From the NCBI GenBank assembly GCA_009668925.1, contig SBEK01000078.1, positions 1 through 17,500 of the forward strand: DNA of 17,500 bases. The letters run 5' to 3'. This DNA is from Deltaproteobacteria bacterium (GTDB taxonomy: Bacteria; Desulfobacterota; Syntrophia; Syntrophales; Smithellaceae). The translations under genes were made by a program, and so were the position numbers. Below are positions 347 through 17,500 of the stretch, piece by piece; positions within the stretch are counted from its first letter, which is position 1, and the number at the start of each line of letters is the position of its first letter. The notes under the pieces were generated by a model. It worked only from the letters and a program-made list of their open reading frames with translations, did no database searches and was not told where the DNA came from.

Positions 347-417
347 TACGCCAGAACACTGAGGGGGCAGCAGTCTATCCTGCGCCCTGCCATAAAACAT
401 TAACAATTTGCAAAGGT

Positions 418-423
418 GGAGGG
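418..423 (+). promoter_or_regulatory. Ribosome binding site fixing the CoA-transferase start
   Basis: GGAGGG lies five bases before the ATG at 429. An in-frame TTG at 408 sits upstream of this site and has no Shine-Dalgarno sequence of its own, so the ATG at 429 is preferred. Confidence 0.8.
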
Positions 424-428
424 TAGCG

Positions 429-3218: not shown

Positions 3219-3328
3219 TAAATGAACGCCTCTCTGTTTTGATGGACACTTATCTTTGCGGGTGAAATGTGGAAGCACGCTCTTTGGTTCATTGTCGGTA
3301 GAAATTGCTATGTCCGCTTGCGTATCGA

Positions 3329-3356
3329 AGTACTAGAAACGCATCTTACATGTCAA
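3329..3356 (-). promoter_or_regulatory. Possible sigma-70 promoter for the activator gene
   Basis: On the minus strand a perfect -35 hexamer TTGACA lies at 3351-3356, about 130 bases before the activator start. The best -10 candidates near 3329-3335 (TAGTAC at 15 bases, TACTTC at 18) match poorly, so only the -35 element is persuasive. The rest of the 235-bp spacer (3219-3453) holds no gene I can support. Confidence 0.3.
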
Positions 3357-3453
3357 GAAAATCTTGGCCGCAAAACCTGGAGCTTCTTCCCGGACCGGCA
3401 AGAAAACAATCTGTCGCCGACCTCCGCCTGAAGAAGGCCGGCCTCATGGGATA

Positions 3454-4077
3454 TTACGGGCTGCGCAGCCCGTCCAGGAATCGATCCACAATCTCGGTAT
3501 AGAGAGAGTGGTATTCATTTTTCGCCAGAATGGTCTTTTGCAGTTTCCTGAGCTGGATCATCCCATTGAAGGCGCCCCAGAGGATAATCGCCTGTCGTTT
3601 CGGATCAACGGCTTTAAATTGTCCTGAATCGATGCCTTCACGGATGGCCGCAGTCAGCATGGCGATGCTGGCGTCGCCATGCTTATCGATTTCGTTTTTC
3701 AAATTCGGCGGAAAGATGGTTGCAGGCGAGGTCAGAAAGTAGTTAATGATGTCGAAATAATTTTTATGGTCTTCGCTGAATTGCAGATAGGCAGCGGCAA
3801 TAACCCGGATCTTCTTTTCCGGGGACACTTTTTTATGAACAGCCTGTTCGATGGCCCCGTGAAGCAATTCCAGTCCCTCCAGTTGAAGAGACGCAAAAAG
3901 CTCTTCCTTGTCTTTGAAATAGAAATAAATCGCCCCGACGCTCAACTCGGATCGCTTGGCAATCTGATTAATGGACGTGGCATTCATCCCCTTCTCCAGA
4001 AGGAGCTCTCTGGCCGAATCCAGAATATGCCTCTTGCGCTGTTCCCTTTCTCTTTGCCGTCTTTCTTTTGCGCCCAT
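3454..4077 (-). CDS. TetR/AcrR-family transcriptional regulator
   Basis: This 207-residue protein has the standard TetR layout. A basic N-terminus precedes a DNA-binding domain (about 15-61) whose recognition helix region reads LSVGAIYFYFKDKEELF (45-61), followed by an all-helical ligand-binding and dimer domain. Members usually repress nearby catabolic or transport genes until a small ligand binds. Here the gene follows the long sulfonate-related gene run on the same strand, with a 75-bp gap, so it may control that run or the adjacent CoA-transferase. The ATG at 4077 has AAGGA about ten bases upstream. The final codons and stop lie within an 18-bp perfect palindrome (3456-3473). The ligand and operator are not identifiable here. 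Confidence 0.9.
   Translation of the reverse strand: MGAKERRQREREQRKRHILDSARELLLEKGMNATSINQIAKRSELSVGAIYFYFKDKEELFASLQLEGLELLHGAIEQAVHKKVSPEKKIRVIAAAYLQFSEDHKNYFDIINYFLTSPATIFPPNLKNEIDKHGDASIAMLTAAIREGIDSGQFKAVDPKRQAIILWGAFNGMIQLRKLQKTILAKNEYHSLYTEIVDRFLDGLRSP
3456..3473. repeat. 18-bp perfect palindrome spanning the tetR stop codon
   Basis: ACGGGCTGC followed directly by its reverse complement GCAGCCCGT covers the last codons and part of the stop codon of the TetR gene. As RNA it could fold into a hairpin at the mRNA end. As DNA it could be a dimer-binding site. No T-run follows, so a classical terminator is not supported. Confidence 0.5.
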
Positions 4078-4152
4078 AAACTTTGAATCCTTTGGTTGTT
4101 TTTACCCATCTGAAATATTTTGTCCGGTTCCTATCATCTGATGCTCATTAAA

Positions 4153-4434
4153 TCAAAGCTTCTTCGCAACACCGTCGCCGCAAACACTATTCCGGCCGGT
4201 CTGGTCGATCACCATATCGTACCATGGTAGCTGCTTTCGGAAAGGGCACCAGGCCGCTCGGCAATAGCGAAGTGGATCTTCGGGAGGGATTTTTAGACCG
4301 GGACAGAGACCTTCTCTGTGATTCTTGACCCACGCCCGGGCCTCTTCTTCCGACTCCGCGTATCCGGCACAGTAGGCCGTCCGGCCGCGACAGTGGACAA
4401 ACCCGTAAATCAATTGATACCGCTCGCCTGGCAT
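4153..4434 (-). CDS. Small cysteine-rich protein of unknown function
   Basis: I do not recognise this 93-residue protein. It has six cysteines (15, 22, 44, 58, 63, 85), including CRAAWC at 58-63, several Trp/Tyr residues, and no signal peptide or membrane segment. Such spacing could bind metal, but no named zinc or iron-sulfur motif is present. The case for a real gene is positional. Its ATG lies 11 bases after the stop of the zinc alcohol dehydrogenase gene, and a GAGGGG ribosome site overlaps that stop codon, so the two are probably translated together. It may be an accessory protein of the dehydrogenase or a stray small protein. Confidence 0.65.
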   Translation of the reverse strand: MPGERYQLIYGFVHCRGRTAYCAGYAESEEEARAWVKNHREGLCPGLKIPPEDPLRYCRAAWCPFRKQLPWYDMVIDQTGRNSVCGDGVAKKL

Positions 4435-4445
4435 CCGTCTGCCCC

Positions 4446-5468
4446 TCAGAATTCCTCGCCGATCTTCAAAAGAACTTTAATGGCCAGTCCGGTATCTATC
4501 CGCTCCCGGTAAAGATGCGGCAGACGCGAAAGCGGCTCGTAATCGGAAATTAACGGCCGGGCGTCGATCTTTCCTTCGGCCATCCATTGCAGGCACTGAA
4601 TGTTCTCCGCGTGCGTGTTGGAGTTGGACGCCGTGATGCGGATTTCCTTGAGATTGATGAGAAAAGGCGCATCCAGGCAGAGCGGTGAGAAAATCATGCT
4701 GACAATGCAGATTTCTCCCGCGTCCGTGGCCAGCAGAACGGCGCGGCTGATGTTGGCCTTCACGCCGGAGCATTCAAATATTTTCTGAAAGCCGGCCGGT
4801 ACCGTCTCCATGACTTTCTGATCCGCGTCTTTTTCCAGAGGATCAAACACGCAATCGGCGCCATAACCGAGAGCGATGGTCCGCTTGGCGGCGACCGGTT
4901 CATAAAGAACAACCGGCCCATAGCCGAGAATTTTCAGAAGCCGCACCGTGGATAGGCCGATGGGCCCGCCTCCCATCACCAGCACCGGGCCTTTCCGGTC
5001 ACCGGTGCAGTTGATGCCGTGCAGGGCCGCCGCAAACGTCTCCGCCAGCGCGGCGTTTCGGGAATCGACGCCCGCCGGAATGGGGATCAGCATCTGTGGA
5101 AAGACTTTGACGTATTCAGCAAAACCGCCCGGCAGATCGCCGATGCCCGTCGTTCGCCGATGCACCCGGCACAGATGCGGCCTGCCGGACCGGCAGTTTG
5201 CGCACTGGCCGCAATAGGTGGGCCGGATGCAAACCTGGGTTCCCGCCGGAGGGCCGCCTGCGTTTGCACCCTTTTCGACAATCACCGCACTGATTTCATG
5301 GCCCAGGATGTAGCCTTCGGCCAGATGTCCGCCGGCCACCAGAGAATGGTCGGAGCCGCAAAATCCCGTATTGGCCACTTTCACCAGCACTTCATCGGGA
5401 CCCACCGTATAATCGGGAACGTCTTCGTAGACGAGTCCCCTGTCTTTATGAAATACCACCGCTTTCAT
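4446..5468 (-). CDS. Zinc-dependent medium-chain alcohol dehydrogenase
   Basis: This 340-residue NAD(P)-dependent dehydrogenase belongs to the sorbitol/threonine/2,3-butanediol dehydrogenase type of the MDR family. Catalytic-zinc residues are Cys37 (FCGSDH) and His57-Glu58 (GHE). Structural-zinc cysteines are 86, 89, 92 and 100. The nucleotide-binding loop GGGPIG is at 166-171. It probably oxidises a secondary or primary alcohol to the carbonyl in the cytoplasm. It follows the MFS gene by 55 bp and precedes a small coupled gene. Its ATG has GAGGA five to six bases upstream. In this setting it could oxidise a hydroxysulfonate such as isethionate, sulfolactate or dihydroxypropanesulfonate, or a related polyol. 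The substrate is inferred from neighbours only. Confidence 0.92.
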   Translation of the reverse strand: MKAVVFHKDRGLVYEDVPDYTVGPDEVLVKVANTGFCGSDHSLVAGGHLAEGYILGHEISAVIVEKGANAGGPPAGTQVCIRPTYCGQCANCRSGRPHLCRVHRRTTGIGDLPGGFAEYVKVFPQMLIPIPAGVDSRNAALAETFAAALHGINCTGDRKGPVLVMGGGPIGLSTVRLLKILGYGPVVLYEPVAAKRTIALGYGADCVFDPLEKDADQKVMETVPAGFQKIFECSGVKANISRAVLLATDAGEICIVSMIFSPLCLDAPFLINLKEIRITASNSNTHAENIQCLQWMAEGKIDARPLISDYEPLSRLPHLYRERIDTGLAIKVLLKIGEEF

Positions 5469-5523
5469 AATTTCCTCTTGTACCTTGTTTGAACCTTGAA
5501 TGTTTTACCTTGCCCCTTCTTTC

Positions 5524-6822
5524 TCAATCCTCACATTCCAGCGTCACTTTTTCCACCTTGCCCAGGTCTTTTTCATAAAAGAAAGACCCGGCAAAAAACA
5601 TCAGGGCGGAAGCCACCAGGAAAATCGGTAAAATAGACATGGCCGCCTGAATGCCGTAAAGATCGGAGAGTTTGCCGATCACGATAGGTGCGAGCGACGC
5701 CCCCAGAAGATTCTGGACCACGACGCAGACGGAATAAGAGATGGCTCTCAGTCCCGGGTGGATGGCCTCCTGCGTGGCGGTGATGGCCGCCGGAGCAAAC
5801 GCGGAAGCCAGAATGCCCATACCCAGAAGCGTGAAATACTGCGCCTGCCCTGTTAGAAGCGAGATGGCCACAAACACGACGACGGCATTGAGTGCGGAGG
5901 TGATCGCGGGAAACAGCAGGCGCGCCCGCTGCCTTCTTTTAAACCACATATCGGCGAGCCACCCGCCCAGCGGCAGGCCCACCAGCGCCAGAATCATGAG
6001 CAGACTCACCTTCATGCCGGCGTCACTCATGGGGATGCCCGCCGTGCGATGAAAATACGGAGGCAGCCACATGATGATGGCGTTGTTGACGAAGATGCAG
6101 CCGATAAACCCGATGTTCGTAAAAATCAGGGAGGGAGTACGCAGAAATTCCCAGACGATATCCATCTTGCTCATCTTGATTTTACCGGTACCGGTTGTGC
6201 AGGTCGCATCGGTTTTCGTAAGCTCCACCGTCTTGTAATCCTTGATGAAGAAAAAGAGGATCGCCACGATCGCCCCGGGAATAGCCACCAGGCCGAAGGC
6301 GTGACGCCAGCCCCAGTGCGTGGCGATGAAACCGCCCAGGCCCATGCCGACGGCGATGCCCAGCGGTATTGAGATATTCCAGATACCCATCATGCGGGAA
6401 CGTTTTTCGGGTGGAAACAAACCGGAGAGCATGGCTGTGCCTGCCGGGGCGTATCCGGCCTCACCGATGCCGATGCCCGCGCGGGCCGCGAGCAGTTGGG
6501 GGAAGGTTTTGGTGAAAGCGCAGGCAGCCGTCGCGAGACTCCAGATCAGGGCCATTAATCCGACGGTCTTTTTCCGGCTCCAGCGATCAACAATGACTGA
6601 AACCGGAAGCACAAAGGCAACAATGGACCAGTAGACGACGGACATTAAGAGACCGGCTTGAAAGTCCGTAAGGCCCCACTCCTTTTGTATAAAAGGAGCA
6701 AGGGACGCCACAATCGTCCGATCGACGTAATCAAAAAAATACAGCAGAAACAGCAGCGCGAAGATATAATAGGTGCTCCGCGTGGAGAGCTTGTATTCCT
6801 TGGGTGCAGTCACATTATTCAT
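5524..6822 (-). CDS. Major facilitator superfamily transporter
   Basis: This 432-residue protein has about 12 hydrophobic membrane segments and an MFS loop-2/3 motif (DRWSRKK at 79-85), with a related motif in the second half (GGWLADMWFKRR). The N-terminal segment with FFDYVDRTIVAS resembles the anion:cation symporter and spinster-like branches that carry organic anions. It should act in the inner membrane, most likely as a proton- or sodium-coupled importer or exporter. The ATG at 6822 has AAGGAG seven bases upstream. It lies between the second ThDP enzyme (73 bp) and the zinc dehydrogenase (55 bp). By context it is a candidate sulfonate importer. Export of an end product such as acetate or sulfite cannot be excluded. 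Confidence 0.9.
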   Translation of the reverse strand: MNNVTAPKEYKLSTRSTYYIFALLFLLYFFDYVDRTIVASLAPFIQKEWGLTDFQAGLLMSVVYWSIVAFVLPVSVIVDRWSRKKTVGLMALIWSLATAACAFTKTFPQLLAARAGIGIGEAGYAPAGTAMLSGLFPPEKRSRMMGIWNISIPLGIAVGMGLGGFIATHWGWRHAFGLVAIPGAIVAILFFFIKDYKTVELTKTDATCTTGTGKIKMSKMDIVWEFLRTPSLIFTNIGFIGCIFVNNAIIMWLPPYFHRTAGIPMSDAGMKVSLLMILALVGLPLGGWLADMWFKRRQRARLLFPAITSALNAVVVFVAISLLTGQAQYFTLLGMGILASAFAPAAITATQEAIHPGLRAISYSVCVVVQNLLGASLAPIVIGKLSDLYGIQAAMSILPIFLVASALMFFAGSFFYEKDLGKVEKVTLECED

Positions 6823-6895
6823 AGGAACTCCTTGTCTCGTTTGAAAAGCTCAACTTTGGGGACCGTTCCTTAAAGCGGCGACAGAAAATTGCTTT

Positions 6896-8593
6896 TCAAT
6901 TACATTTATATCCTCCAAGGTTGGCCAGAGCGACGCTGCCGGGGCTGATGACGGAGGGGTCCACCTTGACATTGACGCAGGCCGTCTTGCCGGAAGCGAA
7001 AGCCGCCTCCAATGCCTTCGCAACATCTTCCGGTCTTTCCACCATGGCGCCGAAGCCGCCCAGCACTTCCACCATTTTGTGATAATCGACCCACCCCAAT
7101 TCCGTACCGTTCGGGATGTTGTGACCCAGGCGCAATTGCTGGCTATGCGCGATCATTCCCCAGGACTGATCATTGGCAACGACCACGACGATAGGGAGTT
7201 TCTTCCGGATCGCCGTGTGAAACTCCATGAAGTTGAAACCGGCCGAACCGTCGCCAATGACCAGCAGAACGCGTTTGTCCGGATGTTTGAGCTTGGCGGC
7301 ATTGGCGTAAGGGATGCCCACGGCCAGACAGCCGTACAAACCGTAGTCCAGATACGTCCCGCCTTTGACGACGGTCCTCGTCATGCCCATCCAGGTGGAC
7401 GTGTCGCCGCCGTCGGCGACGACGATATCGTCTTCCCGGTTCATAAACTTGTTGATCTCACTGGCCAGACGCATGGGATGCATGGGCAGGGTTGCGCACT
7501 CCCACAGGGAGTGGGCTTCTTTCTTGCCGTTTTCATGAGCCGCCCGGACCGTCGCCAGCCAGGGCTGGTATTGATTCTTCAGCGTATCGCCAATTTTTTG
7601 TTCATCCAAATCGGAATTGAGCTCTTTGAGAAACGACTTGATGTCGCTCACGATGCCGAGATCAATCGTCCGGTTGCGTCCTATTTCATCAGGGGCGATG
7701 TCGACCTGAATGAATTTGGCCTGCGGCGGGAAAATATCGCCGAAGATATAGAAAAGACTCAACCGGCCGCCCAGGAAAAGCACCAGATCGGTCGTCATAA
7801 GCGTGAGCATGGCTGAACCGGGACGAATGGCCAGAGAGCCCTCAAAGCACAGAGGATGGGTATCGGGAATGACGCCTCGTCCGGCGCCCGCCGTATAAAC
7901 CGGGATGCCGATCTTTTCCGCGAATTCAATGATTTCTTTTTCCGCATCCGAGTACCACAAGCCGCTGCCGCCGACGACAACCGGATTCTTCGCCGCCTTG
8001 AGCAATTCGACAACCTTTCGGGTATTCTCGCGGTCGACGGGCTTAGAGGCAAGCGTTGTGCTCGGCTTCCTGACCGCAGCCATGTCCACCTTTGCGTTCA
8101 GGATGTTGCAGGGGAATTCCAGGTAGACGGGGCCCGGCCGGCCGCTCATGGCCGCACGGAAGGCCATGTCGACGTACTCGGGGATCCGCTCCGGAACGTG
8201 GCAGACGAAGGCTTTCTTTACCATCGGCTCGATGACCGGCAGCTGCGTCATATCCTGAAGGTCCAGCTTTTCCGTGGCTTCGGTTCCTACGCAGCCGGCA
8301 ATCAAGATGACGGGTGCATTGGAGAGCCTGGCACTGGCGATGCCGGTCAGTGCGTTGGTGAATCCGGGGCCAGCCGTAACCATGGCCACAGCGGGCTTTC
8401 GGTTCATCCGGGCCTGCGCCTCGGCCATGAAGACGGCCGCCTGCTCATGGCGGACGTCAAAAATCGTGATGGGTGTATTTTCGAGATGCTGGTAAATGGG
8501 CGTAATATGCCCGCCGCTCAATGAAAAGATGTAATCCACGCCGCGTTCAACCAGGGCGTCGGCAACGAGCTTGCCGCCGATAACGTTGTTCAT
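6896..8593 (-). CDS. ThDP-dependent enzyme of the acetolactate synthase/decarboxylase family
   Basis: This 565-residue enzyme has the three-domain layout of acetolactate synthase, 2-hydroxyacyl-CoA lyase and benzoylformate decarboxylase: PYR, middle and PP domains. The activating glutamate is Glu50 in VRHEQAAVF. The ThDP-binding block begins with GDG at 447-449 and ends at Asn474. It is distinct from the Xsc enzyme next door and lacks that family's signatures. The start at 8593 is fixed by a perfect AGGAGG seven bases upstream; the longer frame to 8713 would run into the dehydrogenase gene. It may decarboxylate or cleave a 2-oxo or 2-hydroxy acid. In this cluster a sulfopyruvate decarboxylase role, feeding sulfoacetaldehyde to Xsc, is attractive. 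Known sulfopyruvate decarboxylases (ComDE) are two small subunits, so that would be an unrelated solution. Exact activity unknown. Confidence 0.9.
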   Translation of the reverse strand: MNNVIGGKLVADALVERGVDYIFSLSGGHITPIYQHLENTPITIFDVRHEQAAVFMAEAQARMNRKPAVAMVTAGPGFTNALTGIASARLSNAPVILIAGCVGTEATEKLDLQDMTQLPVIEPMVKKAFVCHVPERIPEYVDMAFRAAMSGRPGPVYLEFPCNILNAKVDMAAVRKPSTTLASKPVDRENTRKVVELLKAAKNPVVVGGSGLWYSDAEKEIIEFAEKIGIPVYTAGAGRGVIPDTHPLCFEGSLAIRPGSAMLTLMTTDLVLFLGGRLSLFYIFGDIFPPQAKFIQVDIAPDEIGRNRTIDLGIVSDIKSFLKELNSDLDEQKIGDTLKNQYQPWLATVRAAHENGKKEAHSLWECATLPMHPMRLASEINKFMNREDDIVVADGGDTSTWMGMTRTVVKGGTYLDYGLYGCLAVGIPYANAAKLKHPDKRVLLVIGDGSAGFNFMEFHTAIRKKLPIVVVVANDQSWGMIAHSQQLRLGHNIPNGTELGWVDYHKMVEVLGGFGAMVERPEDVAKALEAAFASGKTACVNVKVDPSVISPGSVALANLGGYKCN

Positions 8594-8600
8594 AATATAT

Positions 8601-8606
8601 CCTCCT
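8601..8606 (-). promoter_or_regulatory. Ribosome binding site fixing the start of the second ThDP enzyme
   Basis: A perfect AGGAGG on the minus strand, seven bases before the ATG at 8593, rules out the upstream ATG at 8713 that would add 40 residues. Confidence 0.85.
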
Positions 8607-8658
8607 AATGATCGATAAACTATTTTATAGACCGATTCTGTATCAAAGATGATTCCCG

Positions 8659-8686
8659 GCAGGGAACGGTCGCGACCGTTCCCTGC
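8659..8686. repeat. 28-bp perfect palindrome between the SDR and ThDP genes
   Basis: GCAGGGAACGGTCG (8659-8672) is followed with no spacer by its exact reverse complement (8673-8686). It begins 11 bases after the SDR stop codon and lies about 65 bases before the next gene. As mRNA it would form a very stable hairpin that could protect the upstream message or cause partial termination, though no T-run follows. As DNA it could be an operator for a dimeric repressor such as the TetR protein at 3454-4077. Confidence 0.7.
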
Positions 8687-8697
8687 ACATCCCAGCC

Positions 8698-9537
8698 TTA
8701 CAGTTCCATGCACTGTCCGCCATCAACGTTGATGGCCTGTCCGGTAATATACCGTGACGCTTCCGAGGCGAGGTAGACCACCAGCTCGGCCACTTCCCGA
8801 GGTGGTCCAATGTAGCCAAGCGGAATCGTTTTACACATTTCCTTTTCCCGTTCTTCAATCGTCGTGCCGAAAAACGACGCCTCCAGTCCGAAGCGCCATT
8901 TCTCCAGATCCGTAGCGATTTGGCCCGGACAAATCGCGTTCACCCGGATACCGTTTCCACCCAGCTCCTTGGCCATGGTTTTCGTCAGCATGATGACGCC
9001 GGCTTTGGCCACGGCGTAGGCGCTGTTGAAGAGAGGCGGCACTTTGCCGGCCCGGGAGGCCGTGTTGATGATTGTTGCGGGTTTTCCCGCCATCAGCGGG
9101 AACAAGGCGCGAGACATGCGGAAAACGGAAAATAAATTTACGTCGATCGTTTTGATCCAGGCGGCTTCGTCGTAACCCAGCACGGTATTGGGCACACCGA
9201 AAGACGCTCCCGCGTTGTTGCAGAGGATGTCTATGTGGTCGAAGCTGTCCTTAATAGCAGCGACCAGAGCGTTAATGGCCTTATTATCCGTAACGTCGAC
9301 GGCGACGGCCAGCGTCCGAACGCCGTACGTTTTCTCCAGTTCGGCGGCGATAGTCGTCATCTCCTCGCTCGTCGCGGGCGACAGCGATTCTCCCGGCGCC
9401 GGAGGCTTTCCCAGGTCTGCGATAACGATGTTGCAGCCGTTGGCAGCCAGTTTTTCGGCGATGGCATAACCGATGCCGGTCTTCTTGCCGGCTCCCGTAA
9501 CAACCGCCGTCTTTTCTTTTAAATCATTATAAATCAT
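8698..9537 (-). CDS. Short-chain dehydrogenase/reductase (SDR family)
   Basis: This 279-residue NAD(P)-dependent oxidoreductase has all classical SDR marks: the Rossmann motif [10 protein letters not shown] (14-23), NNAG (107-110), catalytic Ser161, Tyr174 and Lys178 (YAVAK), and a C-terminal VDGG. Asp41 after the second strand suggests NAD rather than NADP. The start at 9537 is chosen because GGGGGAG lies just upstream; it makes an 11-bp overlap with the end of xsc, so translation is probably coupled. Some sulfoacetaldehyde reductases (IsfD type) are SDR enzymes. With xsc directly upstream, this protein could interconvert isethionate and sulfoacetaldehyde or oxidise sulfolactate. The substrate is inferred, not visible. 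Confidence 0.92.
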
Positions 9538-11290
9538 CTGCTCCCCCTTCATCATACCAGTTGTGGTGGTCCAGATGAGCGTACTTGGGGAGCATTCGCG
9601 TCGGCAAAGCCAGGGCATCTTTCCTAAAAGGCGGCGCGAGCTGCTTGCCGTCCACCAGAAACTCCAGCACGGTTGGCTTGCGGCTCTTGATGCAAGCGTC
9701 GAAGGCTGCCCGGATGTCCTGCGGACGACTGACCTGCATGCTGTTGGCGCCCATTGCCTTCGCGACGGGGACGAAGCTCTCCGGGTTGGGAATGTCGACG
9801 CCGACGAAACGGTTGTTGTAGAAGTCCACCTGGTTTTTGGCCTCGGCGCCCCACCACATATTCCGGAAGACGCAGGCGATGACGGGCAGATTGTGCTCCA
9901 CCGCCGTGCTGACTTCGTGGAGGCTCATGCCCCAGGCGCCGTCACCGATGATGGCGATGACCGGTGATTTGGGCTTGGCGATCTGCGCGCCGAGCGCCGC
10001 GGGGTAGGCGAAGCCCGTGTTGCCAAACGTCAGCGCGGCGACATGACGGCGCGGATTGCTGAATTTCAGGTAGCTATTGGCCGTCGAGGCAACGTTTCCG
10101 ATATCGGTCGTGACAATGGCATCTTCCGGAAGGGCCCTCGAGATTTCCAGCAGGACGCGGCGGGGGTTGATGGGATTACCGTCCACCATGGCCAGACCAA
10201 CAATTTCCTTTTCCCAGATCTTCTTTTCCTTCGCTACCGCAGCCAGACGCTTCTCATCCGGCTTGCGCTTCCCGTCGGCGGCCTTGAGGCGCTTCAGGAT
10301 TTCCACGGTGGCTTCCTTCGCGTCGCCGATGATGCCGACCTCGATGGGGTGAGTCCGGGCGATGTGCTTGGGATTGATGTCGATCTGAATGATCTTCGCC
10401 TGCTCCGGGAAATAATTGATATCGTACTGGGGCAGCGTTCCGAAAACGGAGAGCCGCGTCCCGATGGCCAGCATAACGTCGGCCCTGGCCAGCGTCTTCA
10501 TCGCTGCCTTGGAGCCCATGTAACCGATCGGGCCGACGGACAGGGGGTGGTTTCCGTAAAACGCGTCGTTGTGGAGATAGGTCACGGCCACGGGCGCCGT
10601 CAGGTGTTCGGCGATCGCTTTGACGATATCGAGCGCGTCGGCATCCACCACGCCGCGGCCGGAGACGATGACGGGATTTTTCGCGCGGGCGAGCAGCTGG
10701 GCCGCCCGGTCGAGCTGCTCCATAGATCCGCAGCCGCGGGCGTCAACCCGGTACTGGGACGGTTTCAGAATTTTCTCCTCGAGTTCACCGTAGAAGTAGT
10801 CGCGCGGAATGTCATACAGAACGGCGCCCCGGTCCGCATAGGCAATACGGAAAGCCGTGCGCAGGCAATCGGCCGCCCGCTTGGGATGGGGGACACGCAC
10901 AATCGCTTTGGTCACGGACCGGAAAACGGACATCTGGTCGCACTCCTGAAAACCATCCCAGCCGATCGTGGGTGTTCCCGCCGATGGCGAAATAATCACC
11001 AGGGGCGTATGGCCCATGTTCGCCGCCGCCACCGATGTGACCATATTCGTGATGCCGGGGCCGTTCTGGCCCGTAACGACTCCGCAACGCCCCGATATGC
11101 GGCTGTATGCGTCTTCCATGTGGGCGGCGCTCTGTTCATGACGAACGGGGATGAACCTGATCCCGGCCGTCGGGAAGAGGTCCAGCATGTCCATAAATGC
11201 TGATCCGACTATGCCGCACACATGATCCACACCTTCAGCCAGCAAGGTTTCAACAATTGCCTCACTCGGCGTCATTTTCACTTTCTTCAT
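9527..11290 (-). CDS. xsc: Sulfoacetaldehyde acetyltransferase (Xsc)
   Basis: This 587-residue ThDP enzyme cleaves sulfoacetaldehyde with phosphate to acetyl phosphate and sulfite, the C-S bond-breaking step of taurine, isethionate and sulfolactate degradation. Xsc-type signatures recalled from the family include GSAFMDMLD near the N-terminus, the activating Glu52 in [18 protein letters not shown] (161-169), [15 protein letters not shown] (481-495), and the C-terminal PFRKDAL with LPKY. The ThDP block runs from GDG (449-451) to Asn477. The start at 11290 is fixed by GGAGGT six bases upstream; the frame extends back to 11365 without a better site. Acetate kinase is encoded 76 bp upstream and an SDR overlaps the 3' end, which fits a pathway through acetyl phosphate. 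A generic acetolactate synthase is unlikely given these signatures. Confidence 0.93.
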
Positions 11291-11296
11291 TTTCAA

Positions 11297-11302
11297 ACCT
11301 CC
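11297..11302 (-). promoter_or_regulatory. Ribosome binding site fixing the xsc start
   Basis: GGAGGT on the minus strand lies six bases before the ATG at 11290. The upstream in-frame ATG at 11365 has no comparable site and would reach the ackA stop codon. Confidence 0.8.
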
Positions 11303-11366
11303 AATCCATTCAATCGTTAAGGGTCTTCGCCAGAAAAACGCTTCTTTTCCGTAGGAGCTTTTCACT

Positions 11367-12563
11367 TTAGTTCATTAAGACCGCCCATGCTTCCCGAGCG
11401 ATCATTTCTTCCTCATCCGTCGGCACAACAAAAACTTTAATCGTCGATCCCGGCTTCGAAATCTCTCTTTCCGCTTCACCGCTTCCGTTCATATCTTCAT
11501 CCAATATAATGCCCAGCCACGCGAGAAATGCGCAGATGCGCTTGCGCATCGGCGGCGAGTGTTCGCCGATTCCCGCCGTGAAGGCCAGGGCGTCCAATCC
11601 GCCGATGGCCGGAATCAGCGAGCCCACGCCCCGGGCCACGCTGTAAGCAAAAACGGCCAGCGCCAGGCGCGCCTGCTCATGGCCTTCCGCGGCGGCTTCT
11701 TCGAGGTCGCGGAAATCGGGCGATATGCCGGAAATTCCCAAAACGCCGCTCTGCCGGTTCAGGATATCCATGACGTCGGCCATAGAGCAGCTTTCCTTTT
11801 CCATGATAAAGGAAACGACCGCCGGATCGATGTCTCCCGAACGCGTGCCCATAACCAGGCCGGACAGCGGCGTGAAGCCCATGGAGGTATCCAGCGACTT
11901 GTCGCCCACCACGGCGCAGAGGCTGGAACCGGCGCCGAGATGACAGGTGATGATCCTCGGCGGTGCGGTTGTGTTCTGCAGGAGCGCCGCCGTGCGGCGG
12001 GCGACGTACCGGTGTGACGTCCCGTGGAAACCGTAGCGGCGGACATGGTCCTCGGTATAATATCGGTAGGGAATCGCATAGGTAAAGGCGTGCGCGGGGA
12101 TGGTCTGGTGAAATGCCGTATCGAAAACGGCTATCTGCGGCACGCCGGGCATCAGTTTCGTGCAGACATCGATGCCCATGAGATTCGACGGGTTATGCAG
12201 CGGGGCAAGCTTTTTGGTTGACTCGAGGATGTCCCGCGTCGCGGCATCAACAACGACGGACATTCGGAAATTTTCGCCGCCATGAACCACGCGATGTCCG
12301 ACGCCGTCAATCTCACGCATGTCGGTCAGGATGCCCCGCTTCGCGTCCACCAGGTACGCGAGGAGGGTCTGCGCCGCCTCGGTATGATTCCGCAGCGGCA
12401 TTTTATCCAGAAAAGCTTCCCGCCCTTTCAGATCATGGCGAAACATCGTTTCGCTTTGACCGATGCGGTCCGCCTGACCGTGCGCCAGGACAAGACCTTC
12501 CGGCATGTCGAACAGCTTATACTTTAAAGAGGAACTGCCGCAATTGAGGACAAGAATTTTCAC
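11367..12563 (-). CDS. ackA: Acetate kinase
   Basis: This 398-residue cytoplasmic enzyme converts acetyl phosphate and ADP to acetate and ATP. Length is standard. Active-site residues fall at the positions known for the family: Asn7 (LNCGSSSLK), Arg91 (HRVVHGG), Asp148 (FDTAFHQ), His180 (GFHGTSH), Arg241 (GTRSGDIDP) and Glu384. The ATP-binding blocks CHLGAGSS and TAGIGEHS are intact. The start is GTG, and its GTGA overlaps the dsrP stop codon by four bases, so ackA is translationally coupled to the sulfite-reduction complex genes. xsc follows 76 bp downstream. The arrangement suggests that acetyl phosphate from Xsc is used directly for ATP, with no phosphotransacetylase needed. None is encoded in this window. 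Confidence 0.97.
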
Positions 12564-13762
12564 AAACCGTACCCCGCTCGTTTCTCATCGGAAGGAGAAA
12601 CCTTATTCTCACCCGCTGCGCTGCGAACGACAATAAAAATCCGGTAAAGCATCGTCAGAATTAAGAGCCCTCCGGCCCAGACGCCCAGTACAATGGCGAT
12701 TTCCATCCCCGTCGGATTGTACTCGGTGATAGTCTCCAGCGGAGACGGGATAAAACCGGTGATGACCAGGCCCAGACCCTTCTCGATCCAGAGCGAAACA
12801 AATACCGCGAGGCAGGATAAAGCAAGCCATCCCTCGCTTTGCCGGATCTTCGGGATGATCAGCGCGCCGAGCGCGGCGACCGCCAGGATTGCGGATGCCC
12901 ACATCCAGGGGACGAGATTCCGATGTCCGTCCAGGCCGGCAAACAGGTAAATGAAGGACGCTTCGTGCTCCGGCAGGCCGCTGTAGAAGACCGTGAACAC
13001 TTCGACGCCGACAAAAAAGATGCTGACGGCCAGCGCATAGGTGACGATTTTAGCCAGCGCCTGGATTGCTTTTTCTCCGGCGTCAAAGCCTCCATAGCGC
13101 TTCAGAATCAGGCACAGGATAACGAGCAGGGCCGGGCCCGAGGCAAAGGCGGATGCCAGAAACCGCGGGGCCATGATGGCCGTGAGCCAGAAGCTCCGGC
13201 CGGGCAGTCCCGCATAAATAAAAGCGGTGACGGTATGAATGCTGATCGCCCAGGGAATGGACAGATAGATAATCGGTTTCACCCAACGAGGCGGCGGTAT
13301 TTCCTTGCGGTTACAAGACAAGATCACCCAGCCCGTAACGATGTTGATGAGGAGATAGCCGGAAAGGACGATCATGTCCCAGAACAGGATCGACTTCGGC
13401 TGTGGGTGCAAAAGGACGTTCATCACACGGGCGGGTTGACCCAGATCGACAAAAACAAACAGCACGCACATGACGACGGCGGCAACCGCTAAGAATTCAC
13501 CCAGCACGGTTATTCGGCCGAAAGCCTTATAGTCATGAAGGTAGTAGGGCAAAACCAGCATGACGGCCGAAGCGGCCACGCCGACCAGAAAAGTAAACTG
13601 GGCAATATAGAGCCCCCAGGAGACATCGCGGCTCATACCGGTAATGCCCAAGCCGTAATCGAGCTGGTGCAAATAGGCGAATAATCCGATCGCGGCCACA
13701 ACGAACAAAACGGCTGTCCAGATCCAGTACCTCACGCCGCCTTTCAAAGCTTTTTCCAGCAT
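12560..13762 (-). CDS. dsrP: DsrP, NrfD-family membrane subunit of the DsrMKJOP complex
   Basis: This 400-residue protein has about ten hydrophobic helices and the fold type of NrfD/PsrC/HybB quinone-interacting subunits. With the iron-sulfur protein DsrO it forms the module that exchanges electrons between the menaquinone pool and the periplasmic side. The assignment rests on sequence type and on gene order directly after dsrJ and dsrO. The start at 13762 lies seven bases after the dsrO stop, with GAGG about six to seven bases upstream. An earlier in-frame ATG at 13840 would reach back into dsrO and is rejected. The stop codon overlaps the ackA start. Confidence 0.93.
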   Translation of the reverse strand: MLEKALKGGVRYWIWTAVLFVVAAIGLFAYLHQLDYGLGITGMSRDVSWGLYIAQFTFLVGVAASAVMLVLPYYLHDYKAFGRITVLGEFLAVAAVVMCVLFVFVDLGQPARVMNVLLHPQPKSILFWDMIVLSGYLLINIVTGWVILSCNRKEIPPPRWVKPIIYLSIPWAISIHTVTAFIYAGLPGRSFWLTAIMAPRFLASAFASGPALLVILCLILKRYGGFDAGEKAIQALAKIVTYALAVSIFFVGVEVFTVFYSGLPEHEASFIYLFAGLDGHRNLVPWMWASAILAVAALGALIIPKIRQSEGWLALSCLAVFVSLWIEKGLGLVITGFIPSPLETITEYNPTGMEIAIVLGVWAGGLLILTMLYRIFIVVRSAAGENKVSPSDEKRAGYGL

Positions 13763-13769
13763 GGCATCC

Positions 13770-14549
13770 TCACAGGATGTAATAAGCCTGCGGCTCGGTG
13801 CCCAGATGGGCTCTCCTGCGCAGGGTGAAACGCTTTTCAATCATTTGACGGACTTCTGATTGCGGATTTTCCGCGTCGCCGAAAACCAGGGCCTTCTCTT
13901 TACAGGCCAGAACACACGCCGGAAGCAGACCTTTGGCCAGACGCTCTTCACAGAAACTGCATTTCTCGACGACGCCTTTGGTGCGCGTCGGGAAATCGGG
14001 ATTGATCTTCGCGATGAGCGGCCGGGGATCGCGGTAGTTCATGCTGCGCGCGCCGTAGGGACAGCCGGCCATGCACAGCCGGCAGCCGATGCAGCGGTGG
14101 TAATCCATCATCACGATGCCGTCGGGCCGCTTGAACGTCGCCTGCGTGGGGCAGACCCGGACACACGGCGGATTGGCGCAGTGGTTGCATAAAACGGGAA
14201 ATTTAAGCTTTTGCAGCGCCGATCCCGAATAGGGATGATCTTCCGCGGGAAACACCGAAGCAAACGGCTCGGTCCAGATCCACTTAATTTCATCCTTGCG
14301 GTTGCCGAAGTTCGGAACGTTGTGTACCGAGTGGCAGGCAGCGATGCAGTCTTTGCAGTCCGGCGGACATTTGGTTGCATCAATCGCCATGGCCCAGCGT
14401 TTGGCCCGGAGAGCTCTGGGAAACACATTGTCCTGTCCGGGAATACGAATACTATCTTTTGCCGGTACCGGAAAAAGGGCAGAAGATGTCACCAGCGTAA
14501 AAGCGGAGGCCCCCACGATTTTCAAAAATTCTCTGCGGTTCGTGGTCAT
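13770..14549 (-). CDS. dsrO: DsrO, periplasmic iron-sulfur subunit of the DsrMKJOP complex
   Basis: This 259-residue ferredoxin-like protein begins with a twin-arginine export signal (NRREFLK, then a hydrophobic stretch to about residue 30), so it should be folded before export to the periplasm. Cysteine groups for [4Fe-4S] clusters lie at 61-72, 121-133 (CNHCANPPCVRVC), 153-163 (CIGCRLCMAGC) and 197-216. Electron flow between DsrP and the cytochrome DsrJ is its expected role. The start at 14549 overlaps the dsrJ stop codon as ATGA and has GGGG/GGTGAAG just upstream. A longer frame to 14651 would lie inside dsrJ and lack the export signal at the N-terminus, so it is rejected. Confidence 0.95.
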   Translation of the reverse strand: MTTNRREFLKIVGASAFTLVTSSALFPVPAKDSIRIPGQDNVFPRALRAKRWAMAIDATKCPPDCKDCIAACHSVHNVPNFGNRKDEIKWIWTEPFASVFPAEDHPYSGSALQKLKFPVLCNHCANPPCVRVCPTQATFKRPDGIVMMDYHRCIGCRLCMAGCPYGARSMNYRDPRPLIAKINPDFPTRTKGVVEKCSFCEERLAKGLLPACVLACKEKALVFGDAENPQSEVRQMIEKRFTLRRRAHLGTEPQAYYIL

Positions 14550-14950
14550 TTCTTCACCCCTTCCGGAATGATGTGGCAGTTGAAGCAGGTCGGTTTCGCC
14601 CCAACATAATTGTGGCAGCGGTCGCAGAACTGTTCCTTGTTGCTGTGGCATTGCAGGCAGGTGCCGGTCAGGCTTTTTTCAACCGCATGGCCGTCCTTTG
14701 CGATGTAAACGCGGCGGCCTTCGCGTACAGCCTCGTCGCGCCAGGCATTGAGCATCTTCATATGACTGGCCCGCATAAAGATCTTGTCCTCCACGCATTT
14801 CCTGTCTTGCATGGCATTAATGACGGGCGTACCCAGATCGAGGACGGGCGCCGGTGTCGACTTTATCACGTTGTACCAGACGGGGAAGGTCACGGCGATA
14901 ATAAAAATCGCCAGCCCCAGAATGATTAAGCCCCATTTATCTTGTTTCAT
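14546..14950 (-). CDS. dsrJ: DsrJ, triheme cytochrome c subunit of the DsrMKJOP complex
   Basis: This 134-residue protein has an N-terminal membrane anchor (about 7-29) and three heme-c motifs: CLQCH (98-102), CDRCH (109-113) and CFNCH (122-126). Cys52, in the conserved segment KCVEDKIFMRASHM, matches the cysteine proposed as an unusual heme ligand in DsrJ proteins. It is periplasmic and should take part in electron transfer with DsrO. The start at 14950 is the only sensible ATG, but its ribosome site is weak (GATGGACG). It leads the dsrJ-dsrO-dsrP-ackA run, with ATGA overlap to dsrO. It is separated from dsrK by a 178-bp region carrying a mobile-type repeat, so it may have its own promoter. 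Confidence 0.95.
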   Translation of the reverse strand: MKQDKWGLIILGLAIFIIAVTFPVWYNVIKSTPAPVLDLGTPVINAMQDRKCVEDKIFMRASHMKMLNAWRDEAVREGRRVYIAKDGHAVEKSLTGTCLQCHSNKEQFCDRCHNYVGAKPTCFNCHIIPEGVKK

Positions 14951-15128
14951 TTTCTAAACGTCCATCTGTAAAAAATCATGTCATCATTCCCGCATGGAGA
15001 CTGTATCTCAATGTCATTGCGAAGGAGCGTAGCGACTGAAGCAATCTCAGAGGCGGCCTGACACACTGGATTGCCACGACGTCTGAGAGACGTCTCGCAA
15101 TGACATGGCAACACGTCTTGTTCATGCT
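14951..15128. other. dsrK-dsrJ spacer
   Basis: This 178-bp spacer splits dsrMK from dsrJOP, genes that directly adjoin in many sulfate reducers. Its left half directly before dsrJ is AT-richer and could hold a promoter, but I see no convincing -35/-10 pair. The right half is taken up by a MITE-like repeat at 15011-15106. Confidence 0.6.
15011..15106. mobile_element. MITE-like inverted-repeat element
   Basis: A 96-bp element has perfect 12-bp terminal inverted repeats, ATGTCATTGCGA (15011-15022) and TCGCAATGACAT (15095-15106). It also has an internal hairpin GACGTCT-gag-AGACGTC (15078-15094) and a weaker inner pair TCTCAGA/TCTGAGA (15045-15051, 15082-15088). It encodes nothing. The ends starting TGTCATTGCGA, followed by GCGTAGCGACTGAAGCAATCTC, resemble short repeats I recall as dispersed in many bacterial genomes including Desulfobacterota. 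That resemblance is from memory. It lies 22 bases after the dsrK stop and could also act as an RNA hairpin. Confidence 0.7.
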
Positions 15129-16733
15129 TTATTCTCCGCCAATCTCGTCGCCTCGCAGATCCGTCGTTCTCTCCTTTTCGCCTTTCATAACTAAGGCATT
15201 TCCCACCAACTCATGAACTCCCATCACACTCACTCCCGGCACCCAGTATTCCATCAGTGTTGTCAGCGTCGCCCGGTCGATTGCGCAAATGCAGCCCAGA
15301 CGGTTGACGCCGTGCTTTTTCACGACGTCGCGAACAGCCATCGCCCGCGGCATGCCGCCGCGCATCCGCATTTCCATATTCTCGTCGTTGCCCAGCCCCG
15401 CACCCGAGCCGCAGCAGAAGGTTTTTTCGCGGATGGTGTCTTCGGCCATTTCGAAAAAATGGTTGCACGTATTATGAATGATGTACCGGGGCTCTTCAAA
15501 AAGCCCCATGGCGCGGGCGGGGTTGCACGAATCGTGAAACGTCAGTCTGATGTGGTCGTTGCGTTTGGGATCGAGCTTCAGTTTTCCGTTTTTGATCAGA
15601 TCCGCTGTAAACTCGGTAATGTGCACCATCTTCGTCGATTTTGCGTTTTCGAATCGCGTGCCCGTAATCGGCGATACCGGCTCCTCGAGGAAATCCGCCG
15701 GGCCGTTCATCGTGTCCATGTACTGATGAATCACCCGCCACATGTGCCCGCACTCTCCGCCCAGGATCCATTTGACACCCAGGCGTTTCGCTTCCGCGTA
15801 AATCTTGGCGTTGAGGCGCTTGATCATCTCGTGCGAGGTGAAGAGGCCGAAGTTGCCGCCTTCCGAAGCATAGGTGCTGAAGGTGTAGTTGAGGCCGATC
15901 TCATGGAAGAGCATCATGTACCCCATGCACGTGTAGGTCCCCGGATCGGCAAAATAGTCGGCGGACGGCGTGACAAAAAGAATGTCCGCACCCTTTTTGT
16001 TGATCGGCACGTCCACGCGGACGCCCGTGCGGTCTTCGATGTCGTCGGCCAGAAACTCCAGCATGTCCTTGATTCCGCCGGGCTGAATGCCCAGGTGGTT
16101 GCCGGTCCGGAAACAATTGGCCGCCGGCTCCAGCGCCCAGTTGATGTTGCAGCCCACTAAATTCAATAGCTCGCGGCCGATCATCGTGATTTCCGCCTGG
16201 TCGATGCCGTAGGGACAGAAAACCGAGCAGCGGCGGCATTCCGTGCACTGGTAGAAATAGTAAAACCACTCCTTCAGCACATCGACCGTCAAATCGCGCG
16301 CGCCGGCAAGCTTGCCGAAGCGTTTTCCCGACGTCGTGAAGTAGCGGCGGTAAACCGAGCGCAGCAGTTCCGCGCGCAGCACGGGCATGTTTTTGGGATC
16401 GCCGGAGCCGATGTAAAAGTGGCATTTGTCCGCACAGGCGCCGCAGCGCACGCAGATGTCCATGAACAAGCGGAAAGAGCGGTATTTCTCCAATCGTTCC
16501 TTCATGCCGTCAAGAATGATCTCTTTCCAGTTTTCCGGCAGTTTCCAGTCTTGGTCATTAGGCTGCCAGGTCCGCGGATTGGGCATCTCCAGCGCCGTCA
16601 GGTTCTTGGCGGCTGCCGCATAGCTCCACGTGCCGGGGCGGAAGTCGACGGGCGTCTTCATCCACTCGGTTTTCGGCGGCTTGTAATGGATCTTTATCAG
16701 TTCATCCGGTTTCGGGATTTTGGCAAACGACAT
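15129..16733 (-). CDS. dsrK: DsrK, HdrD-like iron-sulfur subunit of the DsrMKJOP complex
   Basis: This 534-residue cytoplasmic-side protein is the catalytic subunit thought to reduce the DsrC trisulfide formed during sulfite reduction. Two ferredoxin-type motifs are visible: CVRCGACADKC (94-104) and CTECRRCSVFC (163-173). The C-terminal half carries the HdrD/CCG-type cysteine set for a special [4Fe-4S] cluster: Cys403 (HDSCNPARAM), Cys423, and Cys440-Cys441 (CCGSGAG). No export signal is present. The start at 16733 has AAGGAG inside the end of dsrM; the dsrM stop is two bases away, so the pair is co-translated. Length and order fit DsrK of sulfite/sulfate reducers. Confidence 0.96.
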   Translation of the reverse strand: MSFAKIPKPDELIKIHYKPPKTEWMKTPVDFRPGTWSYAAAAKNLTALEMPNPRTWQPNDQDWKLPENWKEIILDGMKERLEKYRSFRLFMDICVRCGACADKCHFYIGSGDPKNMPVLRAELLRSVYRRYFTTSGKRFGKLAGARDLTVDVLKEWFYYFYQCTECRRCSVFCPYGIDQAEITMIGRELLNLVGCNINWALEPAANCFRTGNHLGIQPGGIKDMLEFLADDIEDRTGVRVDVPINKKGADILFVTPSADYFADPGTYTCMGYMMLFHEIGLNYTFSTYASEGGNFGLFTSHEMIKRLNAKIYAEAKRLGVKWILGGECGHMWRVIHQYMDTMNGPADFLEEPVSPITGTRFENAKSTKMVHITEFTADLIKNGKLKLDPKRNDHIRLTFHDSCNPARAMGLFEEPRYIIHNTCNHFFEMAEDTIREKTFCCGSGAGLGNDENMEMRMRGGMPRAMAVRDVVKKHGVNRLGCICAIDRATLTTLMEYWVPGVSVMGVHELVGNALVMKGEKERTTDLRGDEIGGE

Positions 16734-16735
16734 GG

Positions 16736-17500
16736 CTACTCCTTCTCCACCGGCAAACCGGCCGCTTTCATCTTATCCCGGAACTCGTCTTCGTATTCTT
16801 CGTACGTGTGCACTTTGACCGCGGGGTTCCAGGGATTGACATGATGCTCGCCGCGGTTGTTGTTGATCAGGTTGCGGGTCGGGCTCAGGAAAATGCCGCC
16901 CAGATGCGCAAGCTTACTCCACGGCAGCCACGCCAGCAGGACCAGGACAAAACTTAAGTGCATATAAAAGAGGATCCCTGCTCCTCCGGGTGCAGCCGGC
17001 TTTAAGGTTAACCAGCCCACGACCAGAGTCTTGACGGCATTGAGGTCGACGGGATAAAAATGGCGCATCAAAAGGCCGGTGACGGCAATCCCGGCAATCA
17101 GAAGCAGAGCGAAGTAATCGGTAAACAGAGAAAAGTAGCGCATCTGCGGCAACACGACGCGGCGCAGGACAAGAAAGACCAGAGCGCACAAAAGCGCGGC
17201 ATCGCTGATGTACAGTGCCGGAACACCGATTTCAAAAAATCCGTCCACCGCGGACAGCAGATTCACAAAGGGGAGAATGGGTTCCGTAAAAAAGCGCAGA
17301 TGCCGCAGCACTATAATCAGGAGCGAACCGTGAAACATCAATCCGAAAAGCCACAGCCATTTGGCGCTGCCGTACACCGGCCGGCCGTCGACCATTTTGA
17401 CATTGGAATTGCGGAAAAGCGACCGGAACAGCAAAATCTCGTTGGCCATTCTCCCGATGACGCTTGCCTTGCAGCAGGGGTTTTCCAGCGGTTTGTTTTT
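16736..17500 (-). CDS. dsrM: DsrM, membrane cytochrome b subunit of the DsrMKJOP complex (partial, N-terminus outside window)
   Basis: The visible 254 residues are the C-terminal part of DsrM, the NarI-like cytochrome b that links menaquinol to DsrK. Several hydrophobic helices carry candidate heme-b histidines (MFHGSLL, LLRHLRFF-type, LLMRHF, MHLSFV). The family-typical tail GIFLSPTRN, then NPWNP and EYEDEFRDKMKAAGLP, is intact. An ATG at 17449 looks like a start, but the frame stays open through the remaining 17 codons to the edge. Those codons read like DsrM sequence (KNKPLENP, then VIGRM), and no proper ribosome site precedes the ATG. The gene therefore continues beyond position 17500. 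Full family members are roughly 80 residues longer. Confidence 0.93.
   Translation of the reverse strand, partial: KNKPLENPCCKASVIGRMANEILLFRSLFRNSNVKMVDGRPVYGSAKWLWLFGLMFHGSLLIIVLRHLRFFTEPILPFVNLLSAVDGFFEIGVPALYISDAALLCALVFLVLRRVVLPQMRYFSLFTDYFALLLIAGIAVTGLLMRHFYPVDLNAVKTLVVGWLTLKPAAPGGAGILFYMHLSFVLVLLAWLPWSKLAHLGGIFLSPTRNLINNNRGEHHVNPWNPAVKVHTYEEYEDEFRDKMKAAGLPVEKE

Follow-up and report, generated by a model that had tools for sequence, protein, structure and literature searches.

A recurrent dsr-xsc gene cluster in Smithella/Syntrophaceae-type bacteria: a candidate locus for the respiration of organic sulfonates

We analysed a stretch of 17,500 nucleotides (positions 1 to 17,500 of contig SBEK01000078.1, assembly GCA_009668925.1, from a deltaproteobacterium of the Smithellaceae; hereafter the window), in which genes of the dissimilatory sulfite reduction (Dsr) system are followed by xsc, the gene for sulfoacetaldehyde acetyltransferase. 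The host is a Smithella/Syntrophaceae-type bacterium. The dsr-xsc cluster is real and recurrent, and judged by its genes it is a sulfonate-respiration cluster. The window probably holds the downstream part of this cluster, in which a dehydrogenase of the SDR family and a second thiamine diphosphate (ThDP) enzyme, here termed TPP2, would supply Xsc, and Xsc in turn would supply Dsr. The genes, their order and their recurrence are direct observations, from which we infer, with less support, that SDR-TPP2 might make sulfoacetaldehyde and what the starting sulfonate might be.

The order dsrM-dsrK-dsrJ-dsrO-dsrP-ackA-xsc on one strand, proposed in the initial annotation, is upheld: the seven genes occupy 9527-17500 of the minus strand, each above its curated NCBIfam cut-off, and all five subunits of the DsrMKJOP complex are present in order. 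Downstream of xsc the same run continues with six more genes. The features are as follows, in the direction of reading.

16736..17500, minus strand: dsrM, membrane cytochrome b subunit, 5' end outside the window (NF038037, 336.9 bits, cut-off 300)
15129..16733, minus strand: dsrK, HdrD-like catalytic subunit (NF045796, 754.8 bits, cut-off 400)
14546..14950, minus strand: dsrJ, triheme cytochrome c (NF038038, 154.9 bits, cut-off 100; three CxxCH motifs in the translation)
13770..14549, minus strand: dsrO, periplasmic Fe-S subunit (NF045797, 298.7 bits, cut-off 200; 4-bp overlap with dsrJ)
12560..13762, minus strand: dsrP, NrfD-type membrane subunit (NF045798, 475 bits, cut-off 350; PF03916)
11367..12563, minus strand: ackA, acetate kinase (TIGR00016, 455.4 bits, cut-off 293.4; 4-bp overlap with dsrP)
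9527..11290, minus strand: xsc, sulfoacetaldehyde acetyltransferase (TIGR03457 equivalog, 842.9 bits, cut-off 676.4)
8698..9537, minus strand: SDR dehydrogenase, HpsO-type by family only (PF13561; 11-bp overlap with xsc; kept beside TPP2)
6896..8593, minus strand: TPP2, second ThDP enzyme, candidate sulfoacetaldehyde maker (2-hydroxyacyl-CoA lyase and benzaldehyde lyase as its nearest relatives)
5524..6822, minus strand: MFS transporter, candidate sulfonate importer (PF07690; kept in the cassette of relatives)
4446..5468, minus strand: Zn-dependent medium-chain dehydrogenase, HpsP-type by family only (PF08240 and PF00107; kept in the cassette)
4153..4434, minus strand: small Cys-rich protein of 93 amino acids (tblastn identity of 54-77% in relatives' cassettes)
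3454..4077, minus strand: TetR-family regulator, final gene of the conserved run (PF00440; kept in relatives)

To follow the linkage, a species-genome collection was scanned; of the 130 confirmed Xsc relatives, the 80 best loci were retained and compared by tblastn with the 15 proteins of the window. Of these loci, 20 are of Smithella/Syntrophaceae type (L001-L019 and L024). The closest Xsc proteins and loci belong to Smithella, Smithellaceae, Syntrophaceae or unclassified deltaproteobacterial assemblies, the best protein being 93% identical and L001 95%. Three of the 20 (L008, L014 and L016) allow no judgement, their contigs starting only within or beyond ackA. Among the 17 with upstream DNA visible, 14 have dsrP a short way upstream of xsc, with about two genes or fewer between them; the other three (L013, L017 and L024) have no dsr gene upstream. 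The search for xsc near dsrMKJOP first suggested for other genomes has given a positive answer, and the arrangement is more than a matter of chance. In 11 of these 14 loci ackA stands between dsrP and xsc. The intervening segment varies in other ways: 1) L112, L113, L114 and L117 have both ackA and a flavoprotein resembling CoA-disulfide reductase; 2) in L005 (longer stretch L107) this flavoprotein holds the place of ackA (L107 14901-16595); 3) L004 has neither; 4) L002 has 1.7 kb of unassigned DNA; and 5) in L019 a dehydrogenase-like match separates dsrP from ackA.

A composite cluster was assembled from contigs seen in overlapping views, (YeiH)-dsrA-B-D-N-C-narI2-hdrD2-dsrMKJOP-(flavoprotein)-(ackA)-xsc-SDR-TPP2-MFS-ADH-sORF-TetR, where ADH is the Zn-dehydrogenase and sORF the small open reading frame (ORF). 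L127 covers the whole span from dsrA through to TetR unbroken, though it has no ackA, and the linkage survives rearrangement in L110, L111 and L125, where the cassette genes lie upstream of dsrA. In the other 60 loci, within the flanks covered, dsrMKJOP-type matches occur in four, all from Firmicutes (L040, L052, L066 and L071). L040, L052 and L071 likewise join xsc, a TPP2-like gene and dsr, and represent the same linkage in another phylum. These three stretches (Syntrophomonas, Bacillota and Syntrophomonadaceae) bring together AOR, MFS, 3-hydroxyacyl-CoA-dehydrogenase-like, TPP2-like, xsc and SDR genes with dsr.

It is equally a matter of observation that dsrA-B-D-N-C precede dsrM in relatives. 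The longer stretches carry YeiH (not always), dsrA, dsrB, dsrD, dsrN and dsrC, then dsrMKJOP, and most of them have a second DsrMK-type pair, one protein NarI-like and the other HdrD-like, just before dsrMKJOP. Gene assignments in L107 were verified by hidden Markov models, DsrD by Pfam and in L107 alone; the DsrC of this stretch carries the two C-terminal cysteines of the two-cysteine arm, and DsrD is present there. The sulfite-respiration set dsrA, dsrB, dsrC and dsrD thus lies in the same locus in relatives; the window ends before these genes. A dsrA match over cut-off was found in 28 of 34 genomes searched, including 16 of the 20 of Smithella/Syntrophaceae type. A gene of the YeiH/Cons_hypoth698 family stands before dsrA in several relatives (in L106 at 16498-18075, minus strand), and another before ackA-xsc in the dsr-less L017 (291-1865).

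No genome of the 20 had aprA over cut-off, as against 6 of the 14 other genomes; sat was not searched for. Because aprA is absent in these relatives, the predicted acceptor is sulfite from sulfonates and not sulfate, and sulfate reduction was set aside as the function of the cluster. The recurrence of the linkage, dsrA-B-D-N-C in the same cluster and the lack of aprA in relatives together support the suggestion made at the outset, of a sulfonate-respiration locus whose Xsc could feed sulfite to Dsr and whose AckA could form ATP. That the Dsr proteins instead work oxidatively or in sulfur disproportionation, with xsc a mere carbon or sulfur source gene, is highly improbable: Dsr does work in both directions in some lineages, but dsrD, which follows dsrB in relatives, is described as characteristic of reductive lineages rather than oxidising ones (PMC10591310), and AprA, the enzyme reported to serve oxidation to sulfate (PMC6018796), has no match over cut-off in the 20 genomes.

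Co-occurrence across 149 genomes of the order, which we take to be Syntrophales for the host and for this set alike, points the same way. A strong xsc match was found in 25 genomes and dsrA in 39 (38 over cut-off): 19 have both, 6 only xsc, 20 only dsrA and 104 neither. The Fisher odds ratio is 16.5 with p 1e-8, uncorrected for relatedness, and this p overstates the association because the genomes are related. Among the 25 xsc-positive genomes, G122 has a match of only 49% identity, and G047, G102, G139 and G145 have partial matches; G078 was counted as negative, yet pieces of xsc adjoin its dsr genes (L123).

The identity of Xsc is also supported by its phylogeny. In a tree of 28 rows, which are without biochemically characterised Xsc, the window protein falls inside a clade of nine Syntrophaceae-type rows (support 100/99). 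This clade adjoins L020/L021 (87/90), whose xsc lies beside genes named from sequence as like taurine-pyruvate aminotransferase (Tpa) and alanine dehydrogenase (Ald), and the 26 Xsc rows are separated from the two TPP2-type rows (100/100).

The reactions of Xsc, AckA and Dsr are assigned here from known families. According to our proposal, the MFS transporter would import a sulfonate, the SDR and/or the Zn-dehydrogenase would oxidise it, and TPP2 would cleave the oxidised sulfonate to give sulfoacetaldehyde. Xsc would then convert sulfoacetaldehyde and phosphate to sulfite and acetyl phosphate, AckA would use the latter to form ATP and acetate, and DsrAB-DsrC would reduce the sulfite to sulfide, with DsrMKJOP handing membrane electrons to DsrC. 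Our leading guess for the substrate is a C3 sulfonate, for example 2,3-dihydroxypropanesulfonate (DHPS) or sulfolactate.

The case for SDR-TPP2 begins with the lack of familiar sources of sulfoacetaldehyde. None of 24 related genomes has an aminotransferase above 42% identity to the Tpa of L021, where the same search recovered 59-84% in three other taurine-cluster genomes and 100% in the query's own genome; taurine was dismissed as the substrate on this ground. Similarly, the beta subunit of sulfopyruvate decarboxylase ComDE (TIGR03846) exceeds its cut-off in 0 of 28 genomes, all of which have weak ThDP matches below it, against two of 14 control genomes that passed. With no close Tpa and no ComDE beta subunit over cut-off in these genomes, another source is needed, for which SDR-TPP2 is a candidate. 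One variant, in which TPP2 would split sulfolactyl-CoA into formyl-CoA and sulfoacetaldehyde after activation of sulfolactate by the CoA-transferase at 408-1721, was rated low because that gene is encoded on the opposite strand and had no tblastn match in any of the 80 loci.

TPP2 stays below cut-off in each of the best 25 of 51 NCBIfam matches. A TPP2 profile searched against PDB at E 1e-70 gave 397.6 bits for 8vzc/8vzf (named oxalyl-CoA decarboxylase and 2-hydroxyacyl-CoA lyase/synthase), followed by benzaldehyde lyase (BAL) at 375.9, yfdU-type oxalyl-CoA decarboxylase at 330 and acetolactate synthase at 310 bits; with the window TPP2 alone as query, BAL was the top match. TPP2 matches H29, E50 and Q113 of BAL, which we take to be catalytic in that enzyme, and these are invariant in 19 chosen rows of the family. 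Across 73 aligned ThDP rows, many of them Xsc, E50 and Q113 are present throughout, and 29 rows have the His; it is missing from the TPP rows of two Bacillaceae loci, L064 and L068. In a published comparison (PMC13327070, Table 1), the Q113 position holds Gln in 2-hydroxyacyl-CoA lyases, benzaldehyde lyase, Xsc, pyruvate oxidase and acetohydroxyacid synthase, His in pyruvate, indolepyruvate and phenylpyruvate decarboxylases, Leu in benzoylformate decarboxylase and Glu in oxalyl-CoA decarboxylase. The residues of TPP2 therefore lean towards a C-C lyase, and it resembles ThDP lyases of the BAL and 2-hydroxyacyl-CoA lyase (HACL) type, with a putative cleavage of alpha-hydroxy carbonyl compounds. 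This falls short of proof, because acetohydroxyacid synthase and pyruvate oxidase bear the Gln and also decarboxylate.

The assignment of TPP2 is where the most serious alternative arises, a distinct possibility though short of probable. Here, the SDR and ADH would oxidise both enantiomers of sulfolactate to sulfopyruvate, and TPP2 would be a single-chain sulfopyruvate decarboxylase in place of ComDE. The route from sulfolactate through sulfopyruvate and sulfoacetaldehyde to Xsc is reported as established in Roseobacters (PMC6278857, PMC11382572), the absence of ComDE would make such a replacement necessary, and in relatives without xsc a neighbouring AOR could oxidise the aldehyde. Also in its favour, benzoylformate decarboxylase, with Leu at both positions considered next, indicates that decarboxylases need not carry His and Glu there (PMC13327070, Table 1). 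Set against this, TPP2 carries Gln where BAL has Q113 and Ile where BAL has T481; the pyruvate, indolepyruvate and phenylpyruvate decarboxylases of the same table have His at the first position and Glu or Leu at the second. No chain named as one of the first three decarboxylases appears among the best 60 of the 61 PDB matches of the TPP2 profile. Moreover, SlcC and ComC belong to families other than SDR and MDR, which are the families of the cassette dehydrogenases by Pfam.

The boldest reading, which we put forward tentatively and hold to be less likely than not, is that TPP2 is a new sulfonate enzyme of the BAL/HACL type. It would split an oxidised C3 sulfonate, either sulfolactaldehyde or 3-hydroxy-2-oxopropanesulfonate formed from DHPS via the SDR and the Zn-dehydrogenase, into sulfoacetaldehyde and a C1 unit, feeding Xsc and Dsr, so that bacteria considered dependent on hydrogen-consuming partners might respire sulfonates without them. 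The SDR (PF13561), MDR (PF08240/PF00107) and MFS genes together have the family make-up of hpsO, hpsP and hpsU, as these are classified in PMC11382572. For HpsO and HpsP of Ruegeria, a recent report describes oxidation of R- and S-DHPS at C3, giving sulfolactaldehyde (PMC11131964); other papers term these enzymes 2-dehydrogenases (for example PMC11382572). The best PDB matches of the SDR and the Zn-dehydrogenase are other SDR and MDR enzymes, characterised HpsO/HpsP sequences being outside the comparison. Matches in plasmid records, at 29-39% identity for the SDR, Zn-dehydrogenase and MFS and 31-36% for TPP2 among the matches listed, are uninformative on orthology. There is no HpsN among the genes of the window; the genomes were not searched for it.

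Several findings weigh against the sulfonate-respiration reading as a whole. The placing of dsrABC upstream of the window's dsrM is drawn from relatives only. In the 149-genome set, the 20 of 39 dsrA-positive genomes without a strong xsc match, and the 6 of 25 xsc-positive genomes without dsrA, some perhaps through incompleteness, depart from the expected pairing. One genome, G013, has the run dsrMKJOP-ackA-SDR-TPP2-MFS-ADH-sORF-TetR (L143) without xsc, which lies on another contig. The absence of ackA between dsrP and xsc in 3 of the 14 loci bears on the ATP coupling by AckA that was initially placed inside the operon: because of it, such coupling is usual and not universal. Finally, TPP2 is found at 62-88% identity in genomes of the order that lack a strong xsc match, and aminotransferases with 34-42% identity to Tpa are present in 11 of the 24 related genomes, the one of G013 (39%) in the same stretch as xsc.

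The last two findings favour a view in which SDR-TPP2-MFS-ADH, as a mere passenger, handles some other compound, while an unlinked gene, such as a distant aminotransferase or an isethionate dehydrogenase, feeds Xsc. Around the 62-88% matches 18 stretches were examined: the SDR adjoins TPP2 in 17, L134 being too short to tell, and an xsc-type match is present in only two of these 18 genomes (G013 and G122). Since the pair is found without xsc, it may have a wider or another role. L018 and L019, too, have dsr-ackA-xsc without SDR-TPP2 downstream, but in the genomes concerned cassette genes stand on the far side of dsrA (L110, L111). Further, TPP2 of at least 75% identity is present in 24 of the 25 xsc-positive genomes, and in Firmicutes, too, xsc has a TPP2-like gene as its immediate neighbour (L040, L056, L067, L070 and L073). 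On this evidence the passenger view appears unlikely. Genomes with SDR-TPP2 and no xsc could oxidise the aldehyde product rather than desulfonate it, or use another substrate. An AOR-like match lies near SDR-TPP2 in five of the 18 stretches (L132, L133, L139, L142 and L145; that of L142 confirmed by Pfam), a gene of the sodium:sulfate-symporter family in L141 and L142, and a BASS-family gene in L131 and L145.

Turning to the structure of the run itself, the 13 genes extend on the minus strand down to 3454, with a largest gap of 178 bp. The dsrM-to-xsc part of the initially proposed run stands, and its end at xsc does not. The genes thereby left out, SDR-TPP2-MFS-ADH, are most likely the part that is new. 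From dsrM to xsc the spacings are 2, 178, -4, 7, -4 and 76 bp, and from xsc to TetR -11, 104, 73, 55, 11 and 75 bp. The likely start of xsc is 11290, because close homologues align there from residue 1 and GGAGG lies upstream; this makes the gap between ackA and xsc 76 bp and not 1. The window edge removes about the first 80 residues of DsrM, which has 333 amino acids in a relative: the ORF at 16736-17449+ has a frame open at base 17500, placing its start beyond the window, and the match covers positions 84-320 of the NF038037 model. On spacing only, dsr-ackA-xsc would be transcribed as one operon. Promoter-like sites over 3300-17500 were no commoner than in shuffled sequences (6 against 7.2). 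Terminator-like sites over the same span exceeded the shuffles (29 against 16.6, standard deviation 3.9); they occur on both strands and inside genes, and so do not settle the operon structure. Scans for tRNA and Rfam families found no match in the window, and the small Cys-rich protein between the Zn-dehydrogenase and TetR has no Pfam or NCBIfam match. The run is bordered by an acetyl-CoA hydrolase/CoA-transferase (408-1721, plus strand) and a PAS-sigma54 regulator (1827-3278, minus strand), neither of which lies beside the cassette in the Smithella/Syntrophaceae-type loci by tblastn.

Among known systems the closest is that of Taurinivorans muris (Desulfovibrionaceae), for which transcripts and proteins are reported to suggest strongly that taurine is degraded by Tpa-Ald-Xsc and the sulfite respired by DsrAB-DsrC (PMC10507020). 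There, as proposed here, Xsc frees sulfite from sulfoacetaldehyde and Dsr respires it. The idea that a Dsr-linked Xsc would be an undescribed route is accordingly not supported in that form, since the Xsc-to-Dsr route itself is already known from that report. It differs in that its sulfoacetaldehyde comes from taurine by Tpa, of which the 24 relatives have no close counterpart, whereas here xsc lies inside the dsr cluster with SDR-TPP2-MFS-ADH, in a Smithella/Syntrophaceae-type host. The IslA/IseG system of Bilophila and Desulfovibrio likewise reduces sulfite from a sulfonate with dissimilatory sulfite reductase (PMC6453916), but employs a glycyl radical enzyme and yields acetaldehyde, where ThDP-dependent C-S cleavage and acetyl phosphate are predicted here. 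Plasmid-borne xsc clusters of aerobes (Rhodococcus, Caballeronia and Paracoccus) share Xsc, at 40-51% identity to the window protein in the best 15 of 167 records, and in a Paracoccus taurine cluster (L151) a gene annotated as putative sulfate exporter stands beside xsc; in all three examples pta follows xsc, behind the exporter gene in Paracoccus, and dsr is missing from the stretch, in contrast to ackA and dsr here. The hpsRNOUP-suyAB cluster of Cupriavidus pinatubonensis has a PF13561 SDR, an MFS protein and a PF08240/PF00107 dehydrogenase in the order O-U-P (PMC11382572). In the window the order is the same and the likeness is by family; neither hpsN nor suyAB is among its genes, TPP2 is placed between the genes resembling hpsO and hpsU, and desulfonation would fall to Xsc. 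Among hpsN carriers, the Xsc branch of DHPS degradation is reported only for Alphaproteobacteria (PMC11382572). Peatland Acidobacteria, described as sulfite reducers without the sulfate part, with sulfonate-cleaving genes and a second DsrMK pair, use SuyAB, and xsc is reported absent in that account (PMC6018796).

As far as searched, the physical dsr-xsc cluster, its hosts and its supply step are new; in the open-licence literature no title or abstract start describes xsc beside dsr in these bacteria, which is weak evidence of absence. A 2023 survey assigns the DsrAB family-level uncultured lineage 6 to Syntrophales, with the acceptor unstated in the sections consulted (PMC10591310); if the dsrAB of the relatives belong to lineage 6, the cluster provides its members with a concrete candidate acceptor. 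The TPP2 family of ThDP enzymes, common in the order, is a candidate step in the breakdown of C3 sulfonates. Sulfonate respiration matters, too, where 2-bromoethanesulfonate is employed to inhibit methanogenesis: the autoclaved compound is reported to turn partly into isethionate, which a Desulfovibrio then used as its acceptor (PMC6328780). More generally, our reading predicts that some relatives of obligate syntrophs would respire organic sulfonates, and might live without a methanogen where sulfonates occur.

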